From Lepraria neglecta (lineage: Eukaryota; Ascomycota; Lecanoromycetes; Lecanorales; Stereocaulaceae), in contig CM065653.1 of assembly GCA_033220425.1 (NCBI GenBank), positions 3,534,001 to 3,598,000 of the forward strand: 64,000 nt of DNA, in the 5' to 3' direction. A program made the position numbers and the translations under genes. The number at the start of each line of letters is the position of its first letter. The first letter of the stretch is position 1. Positions 2,798-12,315 of the stretch are shown here, in pieces. The notes below the pieces were generated by a model. It did no database searches and was not told where the DNA came from. It worked only from the letters and a program-made list of their open reading frames with translations.

Positions 2798-4456
2798 CAG
2801 CCTCACACATGGACCCATCCTTCAAACCTGTACGATGACAACAGAACTCGCGGTCCCCCCAGAGGCAGCCGCAACCCAGAGACTCCGTCGGTTTCCTCCT
2901 TTGACTGCCTTGAACATGTGCTGAATCCCGTAGAGAGAGCCTCCAGCCAGCCTGAGACCCCCTTCGCTTCGCTTATCCCAGACCAGCACATCGCAATCGT
3001 CCCATCCTTCACCCTCGAATCAGGAGTCACTCTTCTTAATGTTCCAGTCGCCTACACCACGCGTGGGAAGCTATCGGCTAAAGGGGACAATGCTCTAGTG
3101 ATATGCCATGCTCTGTCTGGCAGTGCCGATGTGGCTGATTGGTGGGGCCCGTTGATGGGCGGTTCTGGGCGTGCCTTTGACATGACCAGATTCTTCATTG
3201 TCTGCTTGAACAGCTTGGGCAGTCCATATGGGAGTGCTAGTCCTGTCACCAGCGTTGATGGAAATCCTAAACGCGGACGATACGGCCCAGAGTTCCCTCT
3301 TACTACTGTCAGAGACGATGTCAAGTAAGCATCCAATCTGAGTCTCTGTATGCCATCTCTGACCCTTCCCAGCATACACAAGCTAGTCCTCGATGATTTG
3401 GGCGTCCGACAAATCGCTACCGTTGTTGGCGGATCGATGGGCGGCATGCTCGTGTTAGAATACGCATATTTTGGCACCGAGGTCGTCCGGACAATAGTAC
3501 CACTCGCAACATCGAGCAGACACAGCGCATGGGGTATCAGCTGGGGTGAGGCACAAAGGCAAAGCATATACTGCGATCCCAAATACGAAGACGGCTATTA
3601 TTCCTTCGACGATCCACCATCGACTGGACTCGGAGCCGCTCGCATGTCTGCCTTGCTGACGTACAGAAGCCGTGACTCTTTTGAATCACGATTCGGAAGG
3701 AACATCCCAGACCCATCCCGGAAACAAGGAATCAACGGCAACCAACATCCTTCAACCCCTTCTAATGAACACTGGGCGGTTCACAATGATGGCCACAAGC
3801 GCGTTCGACCACCCCAACCCTCGCCTCCTTCTACTCCCAAGACTAACACACCACCCGCCAAGGCCAACGGTAATTCACTTCAATTCACGGATCCGCAATT
3901 CAATGGAACTACGACCTTCTCACCACCTACACCACCAACTCCTGTCAATGACCGCAAGCGCGCGACTACCTACTTCTCCGCTCAGTCATACCTCCGCTAT
4001 CAAGGCGAAAAATTCGTGAAACGCTTCGACAGTAACTGCTACATCGCCATCACTAGAAAGCTTGATACGCATGACGTCTCAAGATATCGTGTACCTCCAG
4101 ATACACCCAATGAAGTGGCGGCTGCACTCTCTCAAATCAAACAACCAGCACTTGTAATAGGCATTGAGAGCGATGGACTTTTCACCTTTGCAGAGCAGCA
4201 AGAGATCGCAGCTGCCATACCGAACTCTCGCCTACGTACAATCGACAGTCCAGAAGGCCATGACGCATTTTTGTTGCAATTCGAACAGGTCAATAACCAT
4301 ATCCTGGAGTTTTTCAACGAGGTGCTTCCTGAGATTATGGATGCGCCAGGGACCAGTTTGGACGAGCTCAATGGCGATGACAGCAAAGGCGTGGGTGAGA
4401 TGGCAAAAAGTAGCACATTCGGAGAAGCCGAAGTTGGTGACATTACGGCCTGGTAA
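2798..4456 (+). CDS. MET2: Homoserine O-acetyltransferase (MET2-type)
   Basis: Transfers acetyl from acetyl-CoA to L-homoserine, the committing step of methionine synthesis by direct sulfhydrylation. It is an alpha/beta-hydrolase-fold enzyme. Core exon up to 3324, intron 3325-3372 (GTAAGC to CCCAG, CTCTGAC branch site), second exon 3373-4456. Visible hallmarks: the conserved entry around PETPFASLIPDQ, NSLGSPYGSASPVTS, nucleophile elbow GGSMGGM, acid residue region GIESDGLF and terminal histidine in EGHDAF. A Pro/Thr/Asn-rich insertion before SAQSYLRYQG is usual in filamentous fungi. The frame is open from 2798 but has no ATG before the conserved core, so the start is probably in an upstream exon joined at the CAG ending at 2800. 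The listed start is the open-frame limit, not a start codon. Family assignment is secure. Confidence 0.92.
3325..3372 (+). other. Intron in MET2
   Basis: 48 bases, donor GTAAGC, branch-like CTCTGAC 10 bases before the acceptor CCCAG. Removal joins DDV to NIHKLVLDD in frame, which matches the family. Confidence 0.9.
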
Positions 4457-5915
4457 GAGTGCTGTATCTTGCTACTCCGCCTTTCTAGGGTATACTTTAA
4501 CGTCCTTGTACAAGCTTCATGATACTCCGCAAGCCGTAGGTAACCTATAGCTTATAACCTTGAACTGCAACCTATAGCATCTTTGATCTGCAGACCTTTT
4601 GGCCGCTGGTTGCGATTAAGCCTCACTTTGTCTGGGTCGCGCAATCCCGATGCTGTTCCTTGATTACAAAAAAGCACGATCATCGGTATTGGCGAAAGCT
4701 GCTAGTTGAGCAGTCTACAGCATTCCTGTACCCTCGCTGCTTTTCACCAATTTAGGTGCCACAAAGGGATTCGCCACCTCTGATCTGCTTTCTGTTATCT
4801 GAACCGGCAAGGGTCGGTGGCGATGTTTTCCCCAGATTTAATCTGAAGCCATAATCTCTACAATTTGTCAGTTCTAGGCGGCTGCCCCTGACTCGGGATT
4901 CACTCCGATATGATATCGATGAACGGATGAGCCATGGAACATCGTCACGCATTTGGAATTGCCCATTGTAATCTGCTTCCAAGTTGATTCCGCCGCAATC
5001 CTTCTTTCATACGAGACGTGTCGAAATTATGGGAGCTTCTCCTCAGACAGCGTGCAATATAGACTTCGAGAACAGGCTTGGCAGCACGTATCTAACTTGC
5101 TACCTCCCTAGAACAAGTCACCATCCCCAGGAAAATGAGAGTAATTAGCTAACTCTCAAACACCAGCAGCGTTTCTTCCGAGAGCACAGGAGATTTCACG
5201 GGCGACACTAGTGCTACGGGTATGTCAATGAACGGGAGCGTTCAAGCCCACACTTGTGCATCACTGGGCGATGATGACCTGCAGCTTTGGGAAATGACGG
5301 AAAAATTTCCTTGAAGCGGCTAGAAAATGGCCCTATAGATTATCAAAGGATAGCTTGACGAGGGTCAAGCATATTTGTGTGATCGAATTCTTTGCAAGTC
5401 AGGTTCAAGACAGCTCTCTTGATCATGTTCAGATACCTCAATATTGCCGACGCCCTAGCTCACATCTCTAGCTTTGTATACAATTGTACATATCTCTTAC
5501 GGATGCGTGGAACTTCTCCGATGCAAGTCTGCAAAGCGCATTGGGGATGAAAGATGGCAATGTTTACGAGACCATGATGGCTTGGACGAGGCAGTTACCT
5601 ATCAACGCCAAGGCGAGAGAGGATGAGGGCGTTCATCGAGAGGGATGGGATGGGTATATTAAGCCCTTATTGATGGGGAGGGAAAGGTGAAGCTGTAGGA
5701 GGACGACTTGAATGCGGTCTTATTACTTGAGGGTTTGGGGGCTACATTGTATCACCAGAACATCGTTTCTTTGATTAAATTGCGCGAGAGGCTTGAGGGG
5801 TTTAGTTCTCGGCCTCTAAGTTGGAATTTATAGAGATAGAGAAATGAAAGGTATAAAATATGTAGAAGGCTTAGAAAATGGGGAATTTGCTATCTGCGAA
5901 TAGTACATGTCTACG
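4457..5915. other. Intergenic, convergent 3-prime ends
   Basis: This stretch separates the convergent MET2 and hydrolase genes. Small open frames (for example 5484-5690) show no motif. No repeat or RNA gene was recognised. It should contain the polyadenylation regions of both flanking genes. Confidence 0.55.
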
Positions 5916-7013
5916 CTATTTTTCAAACGCATCCTTTAGAAGCCCACACGCCTCCGCATAATGCAACTTGACTTCAGGATCAACGCTAAATGGATATGGA
6001 CTTTTGTCAAACGCGTGCCGCTTTTCCTTTATCATAACACAATGTACCCTCTTCCCCAACTCTTTCAGTCTTTGTGCAAATAACTCGCCCTCCTGCAGTA
6101 ACATGTCCCATTCACACAGATACATCGCAATATTATTGGGCAGTGCGGTGACCAATTCTTCATCAGAGGCTGCGGCCGGAGACGCGAACGGAGACATCTT
6201 GCTGTCCAATTCTGGCATGTATGATTCGTCGAAGAGATTTGTAAGGATTGGAGGGAGGGTCTTGTCGGGTCGGACGCATGCAGCTCGGCGCTCTTCTCGA
6301 GTCAGTCTGTTATCGACGTTAGGGTACCATGCGACAATGGAGACGATTTGCGGTAGTGGCGGTGTAGGTAGGGAGCCTGAAACAGATTTCGACTGGGCTT
6401 CGTTTTTGATTGATTGTATGTGTGTTTGTAAGCGGAGAGGTATTGTGAATGCCATGTTTCCTCCAGCCGAGAAGCCGCTTAGTGCAATTTTCTCGGGGTC
6501 GATGCCGAAGTCTCCTGCATTTGCTCCCAGGTGTAGCAATGCTTCCACACCGTCCTCTACGGCGGTTGGGAAGGGAAATTGCGGAGCCAGTCTGTACTCC
6601 ACGCTCACAAAGACAGCATCTACCTCATTCACCACCATGGCGGCCCAACGCCCATCATCCTTTGCAGTTCCCATTGTGAAGCCTCCGCCATGTAGATTGA
6701 CCACTGCGGGGTATTTTTTGCCTTCTTTCATTCGTAATTCGTAGTCTTCGGGGACGTAGAAGGCTAGCTCAAGGATTGCTGGCTCCCCGCTGGCGACGAT
6801 TGTGGTGGGGAACTGCCGTATGAAGGAGGGTGGTTTGGGTGACGGATGAGCGAAAGTGTGCAGGTAGAAACCTATTTGCCCAAGAAAGCGCCATATTCTG
6901 GCTTCGATACCCAGAAGCCATCGTGGATGTGGGGTGGTGCGTGTGGTCGTAGGCGGTTGTCCGAAGGTGGATGGGCTTTCCACTGGATTGACTTGACGGA
7001 CCTGAGTTGTCAT
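5916..7013 (-). CDS. HGGG-motif alpha/beta hydrolase, candidate Erg-Asp hydrolase
   Basis: A 365-residue intronless hydrolase of the hormone-sensitive-lipase type. The oxyanion-hole motif HGGG is at residues 108-111, the nucleophile motif GFSAGG puts the catalytic Ser at 182, and the likely acid and base are Asp303 (EWDML) and His333 (KRHAF). No signal peptide is seen. A short hydrophobic stretch (FLGQIGFYLH, about 43-52) could associate with membranes. It is divergent from erdS with under 0.4 kb between starts, a layout suggesting co-regulation. Fungi that make ergosteryl-aspartate also encode an alpha/beta hydrolase, ErdH, that removes the aspartate. Identification as ErdH is inference from position and fold; a generic carboxylesterase is the alternative. 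Confidence 0.85.
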   Translation of the reverse strand: MTTQVRQVNPVESPSTFGQPPTTTRTTPHPRWLLGIEARIWRFLGQIGFYLHTFAHPSPKPPSFIRQFPTTIVASGEPAILELAFYVPEDYELRMKEGKKYPAVVNLHGGGFTMGTAKDDGRWAAMVVNEVDAVFVSVEYRLAPQFPFPTAVEDGVEALLHLGANAGDFGIDPEKIALSGFSAGGNMAFTIPLRLQTHIQSIKNEAQSKSVSGSLPTPPLPQIVSIVAWYPNVDNRLTREERRAACVRPDKTLPPILTNLFDESYMPELDSKMSPFASPAAASDEELVTALPNNIAMYLCEWDMLLQEGELFAQRLKELGKRVHCVMIKEKRHAFDKSPYPFSVDPEVKLHYAEACGLLKDAFEK

Positions 7014-7256
7014 GTTGGTGATATTAGGTAGAGTACGATGTTATTTTGTTGCTATTGAAGACTCGTGAATTGGTGGAGTATTTAATTCATGCTTGTGAGT
7101 CTGGCGTCGTAATCAATTGCGAGTTGAGTTCCTGTGGACCAGTCAAAGCCGCACGAATCTTGGCGTTCGAGATCGGAGATTGTACTTTAGCTTAGTAGTG
7201 CTACTGCCATTATCGGTCTGCGACTGTGCAGAGGCTGCTGTCGGCCCTTACGTCAT
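7014..7256. promoter_or_regulatory. Shared divergent promoter of the hydrolase and erdS
   Basis: About 240 bases separate the hydrolase start codon from the first possible erdS ATG, or about 400 if erdS begins at 7410. Both genes must draw their core promoters from this segment. No specific factor site can be assigned by eye. Confidence 0.5.
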
Positions 7257-10235
7257 ATGACGTGCCCTTTCCTTCTGCTTCCGCGACCAGGAGAGGCATT
7301 TGAAATTTCTGACCTGACCAAGCACCAAGGTTGCGAGATCACTCTTAAACCGCCCTCCAGCCTCTGGATCACACTTTCCACGGCCGTCAGCGCCGAATCG
7401 TCATCTCTCATGATGCCTTCGCTTAGCCATGCTCTATCAAAAATCAAGCGCGTTGGCAGAAAAGACGGGACGAAGCAAACAAGCGTAACGCAAAACGGCA
7501 AAGTCGATGTGTCAGCATCAGCATCATCAACCTCGAGCAGTGATTTGCTTAACGACGATGGGGTACCATTGAGCAAAAATCAGGCACGAAAGCAAGCAAA
7601 GAAGAAAGATGACCATGCCAAAGAGGTCATCAACGAGAAACAGAAGGAGGAGGCCAAACAACGCAGGAAGCAGGATGACGAGCGCGCTGCGCAACAGGAG
7701 CCGGAGGAGATCAGAGAGCGCTATGGCGACCTCCCTCTGGTCCAATCCAGAGAACGCAAGCATGAACAGCGCATTTCTCTTGCAATCGTGACCGCTGAGA
7801 GCATCGGACAAGAAATCACTTTTCAATGTAGAATCCATGCCATCCGCAAGCTGAGCGCCAACCTGGCATTTGTCGTCTTCCGACAGCAACTCGGCACAAT
7901 CCAGGGTGTGGTGCACCAAGAAGAAGGCACCATCACAACGCATATGGTGCAATGGGTGGAGCGGATTCCCACAGGCTCGATTGTCATTGTGAAAGGGAAG
8001 CCTCAGAAACCCGAACAGCCGGTGACAGGCTGCACCAAACATGATGTCGAGATTCTAGTCCGCGAGCTCCATGTCGTGGTCAGAAGACCAGAAGCGGTGC
8101 CATTTACAGTCTACGAGGATGAAGTTTCTAGAACGAAGGAGCTGGATGAGGACGCTCCTGCACAAACGAGCAACATTACCGACCGGGCCAGATTGAATCA
8201 TCGCATACTCGATCTACGCACCGCAACATCGAGAGCCATATTCCGTATCAATTCCGGCGTCTGTAACCTCTTCCGATCTTACCTCGACTCTCAAGGTTTC
8301 ATCGAGATTCACACGCCCAAGCTACAAGGAGGTGCTACTGAGTCAGGATCCAGCGTTTTTCAGCTGGATTACTTTGGGCGACCGGCCTTCCTTGCTCAAA
8401 GCCCCCAATTAGCCAAACAGATGTGCATTGCTGCAGACTTTGAAAGGGTCTATGAGATTGGACCCGTTTTTCGAGCGGAGAACAGCAACACTCATCGGCA
8501 TCTGACTGAATACACTGGTCTAGACCTCGAGATGGCAATCGAAGAGCATTACCATGAAGCGCTGGAAATGATCGATGGAACGTTGAAGCACATATTCAAG
8601 GGCATATACGAGCGATTTGGCCAAGAGTTGGAGTCTGTCAAGCGCCATTTCCCACACGAAGACTTGGTCTGGCTGGAAGAGACCCCGAGGATACCCTTTA
8701 AAGAGGGAGTGCAGATGCTAATAGATTCTGGCTGGACCGACGAACATGGTGACCCACCTTCTCCAGACGAAGACCTTCACACTCGGGACGAGATTCGACT
8801 TGGAGAGCTAGTCAAAGAGAAGTACCACACAGATTACTATATACTCGACAAGTTCCCAGCTTCCGCAAGACCCTTCTACACCATGCTAGATCCCGAAGAC
8901 CCCAAGATTACGAACTCGTTCGATCTATTCTTACGCGGTCAAGAGATATTGACCGGAGGTCAGCGCATACACGACGCACATTTATTGGAAGAGCGGATGA
9001 AAGCCCAAGGGGTGGACCCATCAAGCATGGAGGACTACATGGATGGGTTCCGCTATGCAGCTCCACCGCATGCGGGTGCTGGGATTGGCCTTGAGAGAAT
9101 CGTTATGCTCATGCTTTTACTTGGCAACATTCGTTTCGCATCTCTTTTCCACCGAGACCCAAAAAGCCTCCCTCCGAAACCGCCAGCTCCTGAACTACGC
9201 CACCTTGAAGATAGCACTCTCCATCCACCTTGGGGCGAGTCTACTTCACACGATGACAAACAATACCAACCTCTCGAAAACCTCATCGCCAACTATGGTG
9301 ACTCTACGAATACTTCGTGGCTGGAAGATCGTAACCAGATCTGGCGACACAAAGAGACTGGAGCTGCCATTTCGTATGTTCCTACGAATGGATACGCTAT
9401 GATGCCTGGCGACCCGCTATGTGACCAGAGTCAATACACAAAGGTAGCTAGCGCTTTCCTGAACTGGCTAAAGAAAGACAATTCTACAAAGAATTTGAAG
9501 CCGATCTGGCTTCTGGTGGGCCATGAGTTCGAGGAAGTGTTGGGTACGAAATTTGGGTGGAAAACGTTCACTTGTGCCGCTGAAGAGCGCGTGGATGCCA
9601 CCAAGAATGAGGCGGAAAAGGATCACGACGTGGCAAGGAAGGTCCGACATGCGGAGAAGGAAGGCATAAAGATTCGAGAGTTCGAGGAGGGTGAGCCTAT
9701 TCCAGACGATCTTAGATCTCAATGTGACGACCGAATCAAAGACTGGCATGCTGCACGAAAAGGGAAGCAGATCCACATCTCGGAAATTACACCATGGCGA
9801 GATATGGCCCATCGCAGGTACTTCTTCGCTCAAGACAAGGAAGGCAAGATCCAATCTCTTGTGGTCCTTGCCCAGCTTGCTCCACGCCATGGATATCAGG
9901 TCAAGTTCAGTATGGACTTTCCAGGTGCCCCAACCGGCACGATCGAACACGCCATTCTTCACGCAATTCGTGTTGCCAAAGACTCGGGCACCAAGGTGTT
10001 GACATTCGGAGGCGCAGCGACATCAGACTTGCATGCAGCGCACAACCTTTCCGGCGTACGAGTTAAGATGCTTCAACACACATACCATAGCGTCGCAAAG
10101 CAATTCAATCTGAATCAGAAGAGCGGGTTTAGACAAAAGCTGGGTGGTGAGGAGGATCCGATATACGTTTGCTATCCACCAATGGGACTGGGCGTGACTG
10201 GAGCTCGTGCAGTCGTGCAATTTTTCGAGGATTAA
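7257..10235 (+). CDS. erdS: Ergosteryl-3beta-O-L-aspartate synthase (AspRS-DUF2156 fusion)
   Basis: A bifunctional enzyme of higher fungi: the AspRS part charges tRNA-Asp and the DUF2156 (GNAT-fold) part transfers aspartate to the 3beta-hydroxyl of ergosterol. Intronless, 992 residues from the first ATG. Order: lysine/glutamate-rich extension (about 100-150), anticodon-binding OB fold (about 165-275), class II core with LAQSPQLAKQM, motif 2 FRAENSNTHRHLTEY (from about 405) and motif 3 GAGIGLER (607-614, Arg614), then DUF2156 from about 680 to the end, starting near the NTSWLEDRNQIW segment. A second in-frame ATG pair at 7410 (MMPSLSHALSKIK) is the more likely start, since residues 1-51 look unlike coding sequence; that gives 941 residues. 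Both domains look complete. The canonical cytosolic AspRS must be elsewhere. Confidence 0.95.
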   Translation: MTCPFLLLPRPGEAFEISDLTKHQGCEITLKPPSSLWITLSTAVSAESSSLMMPSLSHALSKIKRVGRKDGTKQTSVTQNGKVDVSASASSTSSSDLLNDDGVPLSKNQARKQAKKKDDHAKEVINEKQKEEAKQRRKQDDERAAQQEPEEIRERYGDLPLVQSRERKHEQRISLAIVTAESIGQEITFQCRIHAIRKLSANLAFVVFRQQLGTIQGVVHQEEGTITTHMVQWVERIPTGSIVIVKGKPQKPEQPVTGCTKHDVEILVRELHVVVRRPEAVPFTVYEDEVSRTKELDEDAPAQTSNITDRARLNHRILDLRTATSRAIFRINSGVCNLFRSYLDSQGFIEIHTPKLQGGATESGSSVFQLDYFGRPAFLAQSPQLAKQMCIAADFERVYEIGPVFRAENSNTHRHLTEYTGLDLEMAIEEHYHEALEMIDGTLKHIFKGIYERFGQELESVKRHFPHEDLVWLEETPRIPFKEGVQMLIDSGWTDEHGDPPSPDEDLHTRDEIRLGELVKEKYHTDYYILDKFPASARPFYTMLDPEDPKITNSFDLFLRGQEILTGGQRIHDAHLLEERMKAQGVDPSSMEDYMDGFRYAAPPHAGAGIGLERIVMLMLLLGNIRFASLFHRDPKSLPPKPPAPELRHLEDSTLHPPWGESTSHDDKQYQPLENLIANYGDSTNTSWLEDRNQIWRHKETGAAISYVPTNGYAMMPGDPLCDQSQYTKVASAFLNWLKKDNSTKNLKPIWLLVGHEFEEVLGTKFGWKTFTCAAEERVDATKNEAEKDHDVARKVRHAEKEGIKIREFEEGEPIPDDLRSQCDDRIKDWHAARKGKQIHISEITPWRDMAHRRYFFAQDKEGKIQSLVVLAQLAPRHGYQVKFSMDFPGAPTGTIEHAILHAIRVAKDSGTKVLTFGGAATSDLHAAHNLSGVRVKMLQHTYHSVAKQFNLNQKSGFRQKLGGEEDPIYVCYPPMGLGVTGARAVVQFFED

Positions 10236-11214
10236 TAAATAACAACCCCTCGTGGTTTTTACCATTATGTAAGGAGTTGAAGTGGAGATACCACGAGAGC
10301 GCTTCTATTGTTAATAATAATGGAATAGACTTCCTTCCTGTGACACCTTTCCCCTGACTTGATTTTCATAGAACGCGCGCGCCTTGTCCCAAAGTTTGGA
10401 GATACTACTCGGTGGCACAGAAATCCCGAAAGCAGCACGGTCCTTCGGGGGACAGGTAAAGAAATGATAGCTGCCAAATCCGGGCAAGAACGAATGAAAT
10501 GTTTCGTTTTGTTCTAATTGCAGTGGCGGAAGGGTGTTTCCGGGCAGCTTGGCAGGTACACCCGAAGCGAGTGCCTGAAAAAGTGCGAGCGTGCGTGGCT
10601 AGCGGGGCGCCTATCACTCACCTCCACTTCACCTTCCTCTATCTACACCCAACCATGTCTTGTGTACCTCATTTATCCGAATGGGCCAGAAACAATAATG
10701 CGTTTCGTCCTGCAAGAGAATCCCATCATTATGTGGCCCTCACGCAGTGCCACAGGGGGGATTCTTCGGCCTGTGCGCCTGAATCCTACAGGATCAAATG
10801 AATTTGTACTGCCATTAAATTCCTCTCACATTTTTCGTAAGGATCTCTTCTTCTTTTCTTCACTGCTTCGTCTCGCTTTTCGGTTGTGCTTTCGCTTGTT
10901 CTGGTCAATAAAGAATTTAGACTCGACGTCTTATTGTCCCCACTGCCGTCATCCGGTCGTTGTTTCCATTGTGCTTCCCTTCCTAAACCGACCGATTGTC
11001 ATTGTCTTCCGCCACGTCACTCCCTCTTCCTTTATCGATCCATATCGCACCTTTCTTTTCCACGCTCACAACATACTCGACCTTCTCTCAACAAACACCA
11101 CCGTCATCAGTACGGTTCACATCTTGGCTGAGTCAACAGCGCATCCACTCATTCACGTTCTGCCAAGCACTCTGCTCAGCATAACCACCTCTCCCGAATA
11201 TCATATAGACGGTT
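10236..11214. other. Intergenic, pyrimidine-rich leader before the glucanase
   Basis: Holds the end of erdS and the promoter/leader of the GH128 gene. The part from about 10850 to 11210 is rich in C and T (many TCTTC, CCTTC and TTCC runs), as is common in strongly expressed fungal promoters and leaders. Overlapping open frames here show no motif. Confidence 0.5.
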
Positions 11215-12315
11215 ATGAAGCTCACGATGTACTTCTCCGTTCAAGCACTCACCCTGGCGGCTTTGTCCTTGGACTGCGCATTCGCCCAACCCGCGAGGCA
11301 CGGGCACCAACATGCACATAAGCGTGGTCTGGAAGATGTCCTAGCCAAGAGGCAGGACTGGAGCAACCCAGCCATGTATGCTGGAGTGGACTGGTCGAAA
11401 GTCAACTACGGTGGCGGTTCACCACCTCCGGCGACTTCAACTCCACCTCCCGCCTCGTCCCCTCCTCCAGCTGCGGCTGCGAATCCCGCGCCAGCGCCGG
11501 TCGCTGTACAAGAGAAGGTGGCCGTAGCACGAACGTCGAGCCCAGCACCAGCAAGCGATGCCTCAACCAGTGGAGGAAGCGGTGGAGGCCAACGCGGTCT
11601 CGCCTACAATCCTTCCTCGCCAAACCTCAGCATCTTCGACGGCTACAGCAAGATCACTTGGGGATATAACTGGGATTCCCTTCCAGCCGGTCTACCTTCG
11701 CAATATGAGTATGTGCCAACGCTCTTCAGCAACGCGCAGCTCCATACTGGACAGTGGGCTCAGAACGCGGGCAACGCCATCACTGCAGGAGCCAAGTACT
11801 TCATGTCCTTCAACGAACCCGACCAGCCCTCCCCGCAAGCAGATATGCCCGTCGGCGTCGCCGTTGCTGCGTGGAAGCAGTACATGGAACCCTATGCGAA
11901 CCAAGTGAAGCTCGGTAGCCCAAGCGTCAGCAACGGTGTTGGACAGAATCAAGCCACCGGCCAACCCATGGGCCTTGACTGGCTGACACCCTTCCTCCAA
12001 CAGTGCAGCGGTTGCCCTATCAGCTTCGTCCCTGTTCATTGGTATGGATGTAACGCTCCCTGCGATGTTACAGCCGACATCACCGCCTTCAAGACGCAGA
12101 TGACCCAGGCTATGCAAGCTGCGGGAAGTCTGCCGATCTGGGTGACAGAGTTTGGCACGAACTCTGGAGATCCCACGACATTCATGAGCGAGGTGCTGCC
12201 GTGGCTGGACAGTCAGTCCCAAGTGGAGCGTTACGCGTACTTCATGGTGGAGGATGGAAAGCTGACCAGTGGCAACAGTCTGAGCGCGCTGGGACAACAA
12301 TATGGTAGCTCTTGA
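11215..12315 (+). CDS. Secreted GH128 beta-1,3-glucanase
   Basis: A 366-residue intronless glycoside hydrolase of family 128 (Asl1-type), acting on beta-1,3-glucan in the cell wall or outside the cell. A signal peptide runs to about residue 24 (ALTLAALSLDCAFAQ), followed by basic KEX2-like sites (HKR near 36, AKRQ near 45). A Pro/Ala/Ser-rich linker (about 60-120) leads into the catalytic domain. Visible motifs: WGYNWDS, YVPTLFS, SFNEPDQ (Glu201, likely acid/base), VHWYG and WVTEFG (Glu312, likely nucleophile). It ends near LGQQYGSS with no GPI signal. Likely roles are wall remodelling during growth or lysis. The family call is firm; substrate detail is from family knowledge. Confidence 0.93.
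   Translation: MKLTMYFSVQALTLAALSLDCAFAQPARHGHQHAHKRGLEDVLAKRQDWSNPAMYAGVDWSKVNYGGGSPPPATSTPPPASSPPPAAAANPAPAPVAVQEKVAVARTSSPAPASDASTSGGSGGGQRGLAYNPSSPNLSIFDGYSKITWGYNWDSLPAGLPSQYEYVPTLFSNAQLHTGQWAQNAGNAITAGAKYFMSFNEPDQPSPQADMPVGVAVAAWKQYMEPYANQVKLGSPSVSNGVGQNQATGQPMGLDWLTPFLQQCSGCPISFVPVHWYGCNAPCDVTADITAFKTQMTQAMQAAGSLPIWVTEFGTNSGDPTTFMSEVLPWLDSQSQVERYAYFMVEDGKLTSGNSLSALGQQYGSS

Follow-up and report, generated by a model that had tools for sequence, protein, structure and literature searches.

In the genome of Lepraria neglecta, a gene firmly predicted to encode the ergosteryl-aspartate synthase ErdS stands beside a divergent gene for an alpha/beta hydrolase. We consider it roughly 70% probable that the two form an aminoacyl-sterol writer/eraser pair, in which the hydrolase is most likely ErdH. 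This enzyme is said to have been described by Yakobov et al. in 2020 as the hydrolase of ergosteryl-aspartate (Erg-Asp), and our explanation presumes it to be an alpha/beta hydrolase.

Both genes lie in the window, that is, the whole 64-kb stretch of DNA under analysis. The ORF of the ErdS gene (window 7191-10235, plus strand) has no internal stops and carries a double ATG at 7410/7413, giving 941 aa, and that of the hydrolase gene (window 5916-7040, minus strand), equally free of internal stops, starts with an ATG at 7013 and gives 365 aa. The two genes are divergently oriented, with 396 bp between their start codons, which bears out the original prediction of a divergent pair of erdS and an alpha/beta hydrolase on these two ORFs. 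The features of the locus are the following:

5916..7013, minus strand: HSL-type alpha/beta hydrolase of 365 aa, candidate ErdH (PF07859, HGGG, triad, AF2 core and Foldseek)
7014..7409, no strand: intergenic region of 396 bp between both start codons (ORF starts)
7250..7263, no strand: perfect 14-bp palindrome ACGTCATATGACGT, candidate regulatory site (genome-wide exact search)
7410..10235, plus strand: erdS, AspRS-DUF2156 fusion of 941 aa, single exon (ORF, PF00152, PF09924, PDB 9w9f_A)
7824..8075, plus strand: anticodon-binding OB fold within ErdS, aa 139-222 (PF01336, just under cut-off)
8184..9155, plus strand: class II AspRS catalytic domain of ErdS, aa 259-582 (PF00152; recovered in the genome search)
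9297..10175, plus strand: DUF2156/LPG_synthase_C aminoacyl-tRNA transferase domain of ErdS, aa 630-922 (PF09924; recovered in the genome search)

Another alpha/beta-fold ORF (PF00561) occupies positions 3329-4456 of the same window.

The assignment of the plus-strand gene to ErdS is firm, as judged from the architecture of the predicted protein and from a solved fusion that it matches over almost its entire length. Pfam places PF00152 at residues 259-582 (253.8 bits, 2.7e-75) and PF09924 LPG_synthase_C, which we take to be the DUF2156 family renamed, at residues 630-922 (68.2 bits against a cut-off of 27.5, 8.2e-19), and the OB fold falls slightly below its cut-off of 27 (PF01336, 26.2 bits, 7.9e-6). 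In the PDB search, residues 5-941 align colinearly with 9w9f_A (1238 bits, E = 0), and the yeast AspRS 1asy matches residues 101-589 (8.6e-149), the AspRS domain being of the archaeal/eukaryote type. Domain scores as high as those found at this locus are no product of chance, and the AspRS-DUF2156 fusion, for which a firm family identity had been claimed, is indeed contained in one chain. Its reaction is taken from the family literature: in the passages available from a review (PMC9437257), ErdS consists of AspRS plus DUF2156 and produces Erg-Asp, and the erdS of A. fumigatus is given in the literature as AFUA_1G02570. The protein also exceeds the NCBIfam cut-offs of the non-discriminating archaeal/bacterial AspRS models TIGR00458 and PRK05159, a result that counts against our best explanation and bears on the tRNA specificity.

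Other genes of the same families put this copy in context. A canonical cytosolic-type AspRS is encoded at C1:1171920-1173457 (its main pieces are 38% and 50% identical), where the genome profile search found no PF09924 place, so the fusion is unnecessary for mere tRNA charging. Such coexistence is usual for ErdS, though no defining trait. New for this genome is that contig C5 carries another AspRS-DUF2156 gene, old and broken, which shares about 70% amino-acid identity with the window copy; the window copy is thus the sole intact ErdS gene found. RIP was rejected as the cause of the decay of this paralogue, its dinucleotide indices being similar to those of the window gene, and an intron was rejected as the explanation of its stops, which the protein alignment, inspected by eye, crosses ungapped. 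The dS of the pair is saturated. In the 9.9 kb read around the C5 gene there is no relative of the hydrolase, a point against our best explanation. No free-standing DUF2156 gene (ErgS-like) passed the genome search, both PF09924 places being fusions, in a search that reads exon by exon and that an intron-split ErgS gene may escape.

The minus-strand gene encodes a member of PF07859 (148.1 bits against a cut-off of 25, 3.8e-43 in Pfam). It had been described as an HGGG hydrolase with a full catalytic set, and all the letters are in place: HGGG from residue 108, Ser182 within GFSAG, Asp303 and His333. The three residues are invariant in a 7-row alignment (A2), and in a 16-row alignment (A1) Ser182 is invariant, His333 nearly so and Asp303 absent from the conserved positions. 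Two scans of viral_contigs meant to deepen the hydrolase alignment gave 1 and 2 loci, the sole new one being L089. Modelled by AF2 with 11 sequences, the protein reached a pLDDT of 65.5 and a pTM of 0.67, with a usable core (pLDDT 36 from the single sequence) and mostly low confidence at residues 1-65, 227-276 and 335-343. The best 50 of 1766 Foldseek matches are HSL-type esterases and carboxylesterases (probability 1.00, E down to 1.6e-20), with rmsd of 5.6-11 A, TM of about 0.6 by query and 20-29% identity. The predicted fold is that of a generic esterase, uninformative on sterol or aspartate. No close paralogue was found in the genome, the nearest candidate sharing 41% over 99 aa in one search and 33% over 162 aa in a BLASTP of ORFs.

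These features suggest a simple cycle. The AspRS half of ErdS would load aspartate onto tRNA-Asp, and the DUF2156 half would transfer it to the 3-beta-OH of ergosterol to give ergosteryl-aspartate. The hydrolase, a putative ErdH acting as an HSL-type serine esterase, would then cleave the aspartyl ester through Ser182-Asp303-His333, with the HGGG loop as a probable oxyanion hole, and release free ergosterol and aspartate. The substrate of the hydrolase, and any shared regulation of the pair, are what we infer here; nothing found in the analysis contradicts its reading as ErdH.

The main competing explanation, to which we give a distinctly smaller though appreciable weight, holds that the divergent gene is an ordinary carboxylesterase or HSL-type esterase lying by chance beside a real ErdS, with the true ErdH elsewhere in the genome. 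The matches of the hydrolase are indeed generic in both family and fold: the 10 NCBIfam models listed for it all stay below their own cut-offs, and no Erg-Asp hydrolase appears by name among the best 60 of its 136 PDB matches. Alternative candidates for ErdH are also at hand, both in the PF00561 ORF of the same window and among the PF07859 places of the 42.0-Mb genome, of which the profile search, whose counts are lower bounds, found at least 29 (28 above cut-off). Against a chance neighbour stands the distribution of these places. Only one of the 13 PF00152 places, that of ErdS, has one of the 29 nearby (1.5 kb), and for the remaining 12 the nearest is at least 97 kb off. With about 26 PF07859 genes among an assumed 13,000, such a neighbour on either side would be expected by chance in about 0.4% of cases, so the adjacency of erdS and the hydrolase is hard to get by chance.

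The intergenic region was considered as a possible seat of joint control, which its shortness does not establish; compact divergent gene pairs are common in filamentous fungi. Its sole perfect palindrome of at least 10 bp, ACGTCATATGACGT at 7250..7263, is made of two inverted ATGACGT half sites and has one exact site genome-wide against 0.16 expected, and the C5 paralogue has an ATGACGT too, 109 bp upstream of its former start. As a candidate regulatory site it is not statistically striking: a 14-bp palindrome has about a 2% chance of occurring in a random gap of 396 bp and three of that length are present in the 64-kb window, on which grounds it was rejected as proof of co-regulation. A more elaborate proposal, in which erdS and the hydrolase would have a single short promoter with the inverted CRE-like ATGACGT pair at its centre, so that a stress bZIP factor would jointly set Erg-Asp synthesis and removal as a self-contained sterol-charge switch, and in which an older, unlinked second ErdS without a hydrolase was lost and the linked pair kept, seems to us improbable.

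HSL-type esterases are, as is generally known, frequently promiscuous. That the window hydrolase would cleave aminoacyl-lipid or aminoacyl-sterol esters broadly (e.g. ergosteryl-glycine), with Erg-Asp not its main substrate, is nevertheless very unlikely, even though ergosteryl-glycine and ergosteryl-aspartate are both reported from A. fumigatus in the passages available (PMC12186260, PMC10449517), since no free-standing ErgS-type gene passed the genome search (an intron-split one could escape) and Erg-Gly may thus not be produced in this fungus.

Searches in other collections carry no weight on the ErdH question. In viral_contigs, one stretch matched with the hydrolase and three with ErdS, none confirmed; in the prokaryotic genome_contigs, the DUF2156 part matched 28 (none confirmed) and the hydrolase 17, with a single confirmed match to a bacterial esterase (32% over aa 94-193). 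None of these scans returned a fungal copy. The ErdS-related literature passages at hand contain no description of ErdH or of the gene beside erdS, and an excerpt of one paper pairs AFUA_1G02590 with yeast YKL125W, a pairing that does not give the nature of the erdS neighbour.

Should the hydrolase be ErdH, its position next to erdS would offer a simple rule for locating the eraser in other ErdS-bearing genomes, and a single intergenic fragment could carry joint control of ergosterol modification; if it is not, the locus is one more example of the published pathway. In its broken C5 copy, the fungus offers a naturally occurring example of a reduced ErdS copy number.

Among known systems, the closest to the window protein is ErdS itself, the ergosteryl-3beta-O-L-aspartate synthase of A. 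fumigatus (AFUA_1G02570), together with the solved fusion (9w9e/9w9f/9w9g), which likewise joins AspRS and DUF2156 in one chain. Where 9w9f and 9w9g differ in the AspRS domain, the window ErdS carries the letters of 9w9f, whereas its N-terminal tail is divergent from the solved fusion and its genome holds one additional, broken paralogue. A triad-bearing hydrolase next to erdS would fit the part of ErdH, a likeness of role. The HSL/PF07859 esterases (EST2 1u4n/1evq, EstE1 2c7b, Rhizomucor 4wy8, Tuber 5mif) have in common with it the order HGGG, GxSAGG, Asp and His, but at just 20-29% identity within the best 50 of 1766 Foldseek matches. The aminoacyl-phosphatidylglycerol hydrolases of P. aeruginosa and E. 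faecium, listed among the references of PMC10580965, would act alike, each erasing an aminoacyl-lipid that a DUF2156-type enzyme makes in a tRNA-dependent way, again a parallel of role, with a glycerolipid substrate instead of the sterol proposed here. The mycobacterial LysX (LysRS plus MprF), as outlined in the review excerpts (PMC9437257), is also a synthetase fused to a lipid aminoacyl-transferase domain, but it places lysine on a glycerolipid, whereas ErdS would place aspartate on a sterol, and with 94.6 bits against a cut-off of 742 the window ErdS falls far short of the NCBIfam LysX model.

Two intron-free ORFs, erdS and a hydrolase gene, lie divergently at 5916-10235, in the arrangement that the original prediction had described, with an ATG-to-ATG gap of 396 bp. 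The features that matter here are as follows (window positions, except for the last line):

Features of the erdS/hydrolase pair and of the second fusion gene
5916-7013, minus strand: hydrolase ORF, intron-free, 365 aa, PF07859 (148.1 bits)
7250-7263: perfect 14-bp palindrome, ACGTCATATGACGT, two inverted ATGACGT sites
7410-10235, plus strand: erdS ORF, intron-free, 941 aa
C5 (another contig of this genome) about 3924233-3927059, positions 3734-6560 of the fetched locus L048 and on its minus strand: second AspRS-DUF2156 fusion gene, broken

From its sequence, the plus-strand gene can be firmly assigned to ErdS. Its product carries a class II AspRS domain (PF00152, 253.8 bits in Pfam) and a C-terminal LPG_synthase_C/DUF2156 domain (PF09924, 68.2 bits). 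The top three PDB sequence matches (9w9e, 9w9f and 9w9g, deposit title ‘Aspartate--tRNA ligase, cytoplasmic’) belong to a solved AspRS-DUF2156 fusion, and 9w9f (947 aa) aligns with residues 5-941; the next match, yeast AspRS, spans residues 101-589 only. These domains and this alignment bear out the predicted family identity. Two NCBIfam models for non-discriminating AspRS also score above their cut-offs on the AspRS part; they serve archaea and bacteria, so that no tRNA specificity is drawn from them.

A canonical, cytosolic-type AspRS is encoded at C1:1171920-1173457 (locus L090), in several open pieces as expected of an intron-split gene, and the PF09924 search of the genome placed no DUF2156 there. 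The ErdS fusion is therefore extra to translation, although tRNA charging by it could still contribute. The whole-genome search, which works exon by exon and may miss a split gene, found no free-standing, ErgS-like DUF2156 gene, both PF09924 places being fusions. An AspRS-like piece at C5:1311890-1312231 (38% identical over residues 360-473 of a query of 489 aa; open frame of 141 aa) may be a remnant or a single exon from some other synthetase.

Besides erdS, PF09924 matches the genome at C5:3924387-3925151, which adjoins an AspRS part, the PF00152 place C5:3925296-3926273. The protein of this second fusion gene is 70% identical to that of erdS over 874 residues and its DNA 68% identical (2793 aligned columns), and within a DUF2156 block of 240 codons the two genes differ at 56 out of 80 four-fold sites, which is near saturation. 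The gene has lost its initiator codons, carries two in-frame TAG codons where its AspRS part meets its DUF2156 part, and changes frame close to its 3′ end; it shows no RIP-type dinucleotide bias. We read it as an old duplicate, constrained for long and decayed late, though its breaks may be an assembly error. No relative of the window hydrolase occurs in the 9.9 kb read near it, and Pfam on five of the 32 ORFs listed around it gave TrkH twice (once under the cut-off), DUF7514 once and nothing for two. Because the C5 copy is broken, the window locus carries the only intact ErdS gene found in the genome.

The divergent hydrolase does have the predicted catalytic letters, HGGG at 108 and Ser182, Asp303 and His333. 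In the PDB its relatives are carboxylesterases of the HSL type (136 distinct sequences matched at E <= 0.001, of which the best 60 were inspected; top match 2yh2, 1.1e-24), and all ten NCBIfam models listed for it fall under their cut-offs. The AlphaFold2 model built on an alignment of 11 rows has a confident core (pLDDT 65.5, pTM 0.67) and weak stretches at residues 1-65, 227-276 and 335-343, the last adjoining His333. Among the best 50 Foldseek rows, EST2, EstE1 and the fungal esterases 4wy8 and 5mif appear with probability 1.00, at rmsd values of 5.6-11 Å. This supports a serine esterase but says nothing of its substrate. Scans of viral collections with the hydrolase and ErdS, and of prokaryotic ones with the hydrolase and the DUF2156 part, turned up no fungal homologue. 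Six other places in the genome match it at E <= 0.001 (best, 41% over 99 aa), and among the ORFs of the fetched loci the best other BLASTP match is 33% over 162 aa; within its own genome the hydrolase stands alone.

PF07859 has at least 29 places in the 42,023,604 bases, counted as about 26 genes because in three cases two places seem to be exons of a single gene. At an assumed total of 13,000 genes, the chance of a PF07859 gene among a gene's two neighbours is about 0.4%. As an internal control, limited to class II D/K/N-type synthetases, 13 PF00152 places were compared: only the ErdS one lies close to a PF07859 place (1.5 kb), and for the other 12 the nearest on the same contig lies 97 kb to 1.0 Mb off. 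An Erg-Asp hydrolase, ErdH, reportedly exists and is said to be widely conserved (a PNAS study of 2020); we suspect that gene neighbourhood aided its discovery. Taken together, the neighbour chance, the control and this background make ErdH the best reading of the window hydrolase, with a probability of about 0.7.

Within 4400-11300 no Rfam family reaches its gathering score. The palindrome in the gap is a candidate for a shared-control site, as a lead only: it is the sole exact site found in the genome, which means little because just 0.16 are expected, such a palindrome arises in about 2% of trials under a Markov model of the gap, and the whole 64-kb window holds three palindromes of 14 bp. 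ATGACGT also occurs 109 bp upstream of the former start of the C5 paralogue, a match sought after the fact, whose probability over the scanned 440 bp is about 5%. Nearby, a second alpha/beta-fold ORF (PF00561) lies at 3329-4456 on the plus strand, which we take to be perhaps a homoserine O-acetyltransferase, and downstream of erdS an ORF with a PF11790 glycosyl hydrolase catalytic core lies at 11218-12315 (plus strand).

A review describes ErdS as the single enzyme in fungi that combines AspRS with DUF2156 activity, producing ergosteryl-aspartate (PMC9437257), and the window gene has this architecture; other papers give erdS as AFUA_1G02570, in work on an A. oryzae fermentate (PMC11619415), and record, in a 2014 survey, DUF2156 at the C-terminus of an AspRS-type protein from A. 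niger (PMC4301749). The partner of erdS is likely ErdH, and the locus gives one more example of the published pathway, to which the sole addition is the broken second ErdS copy.
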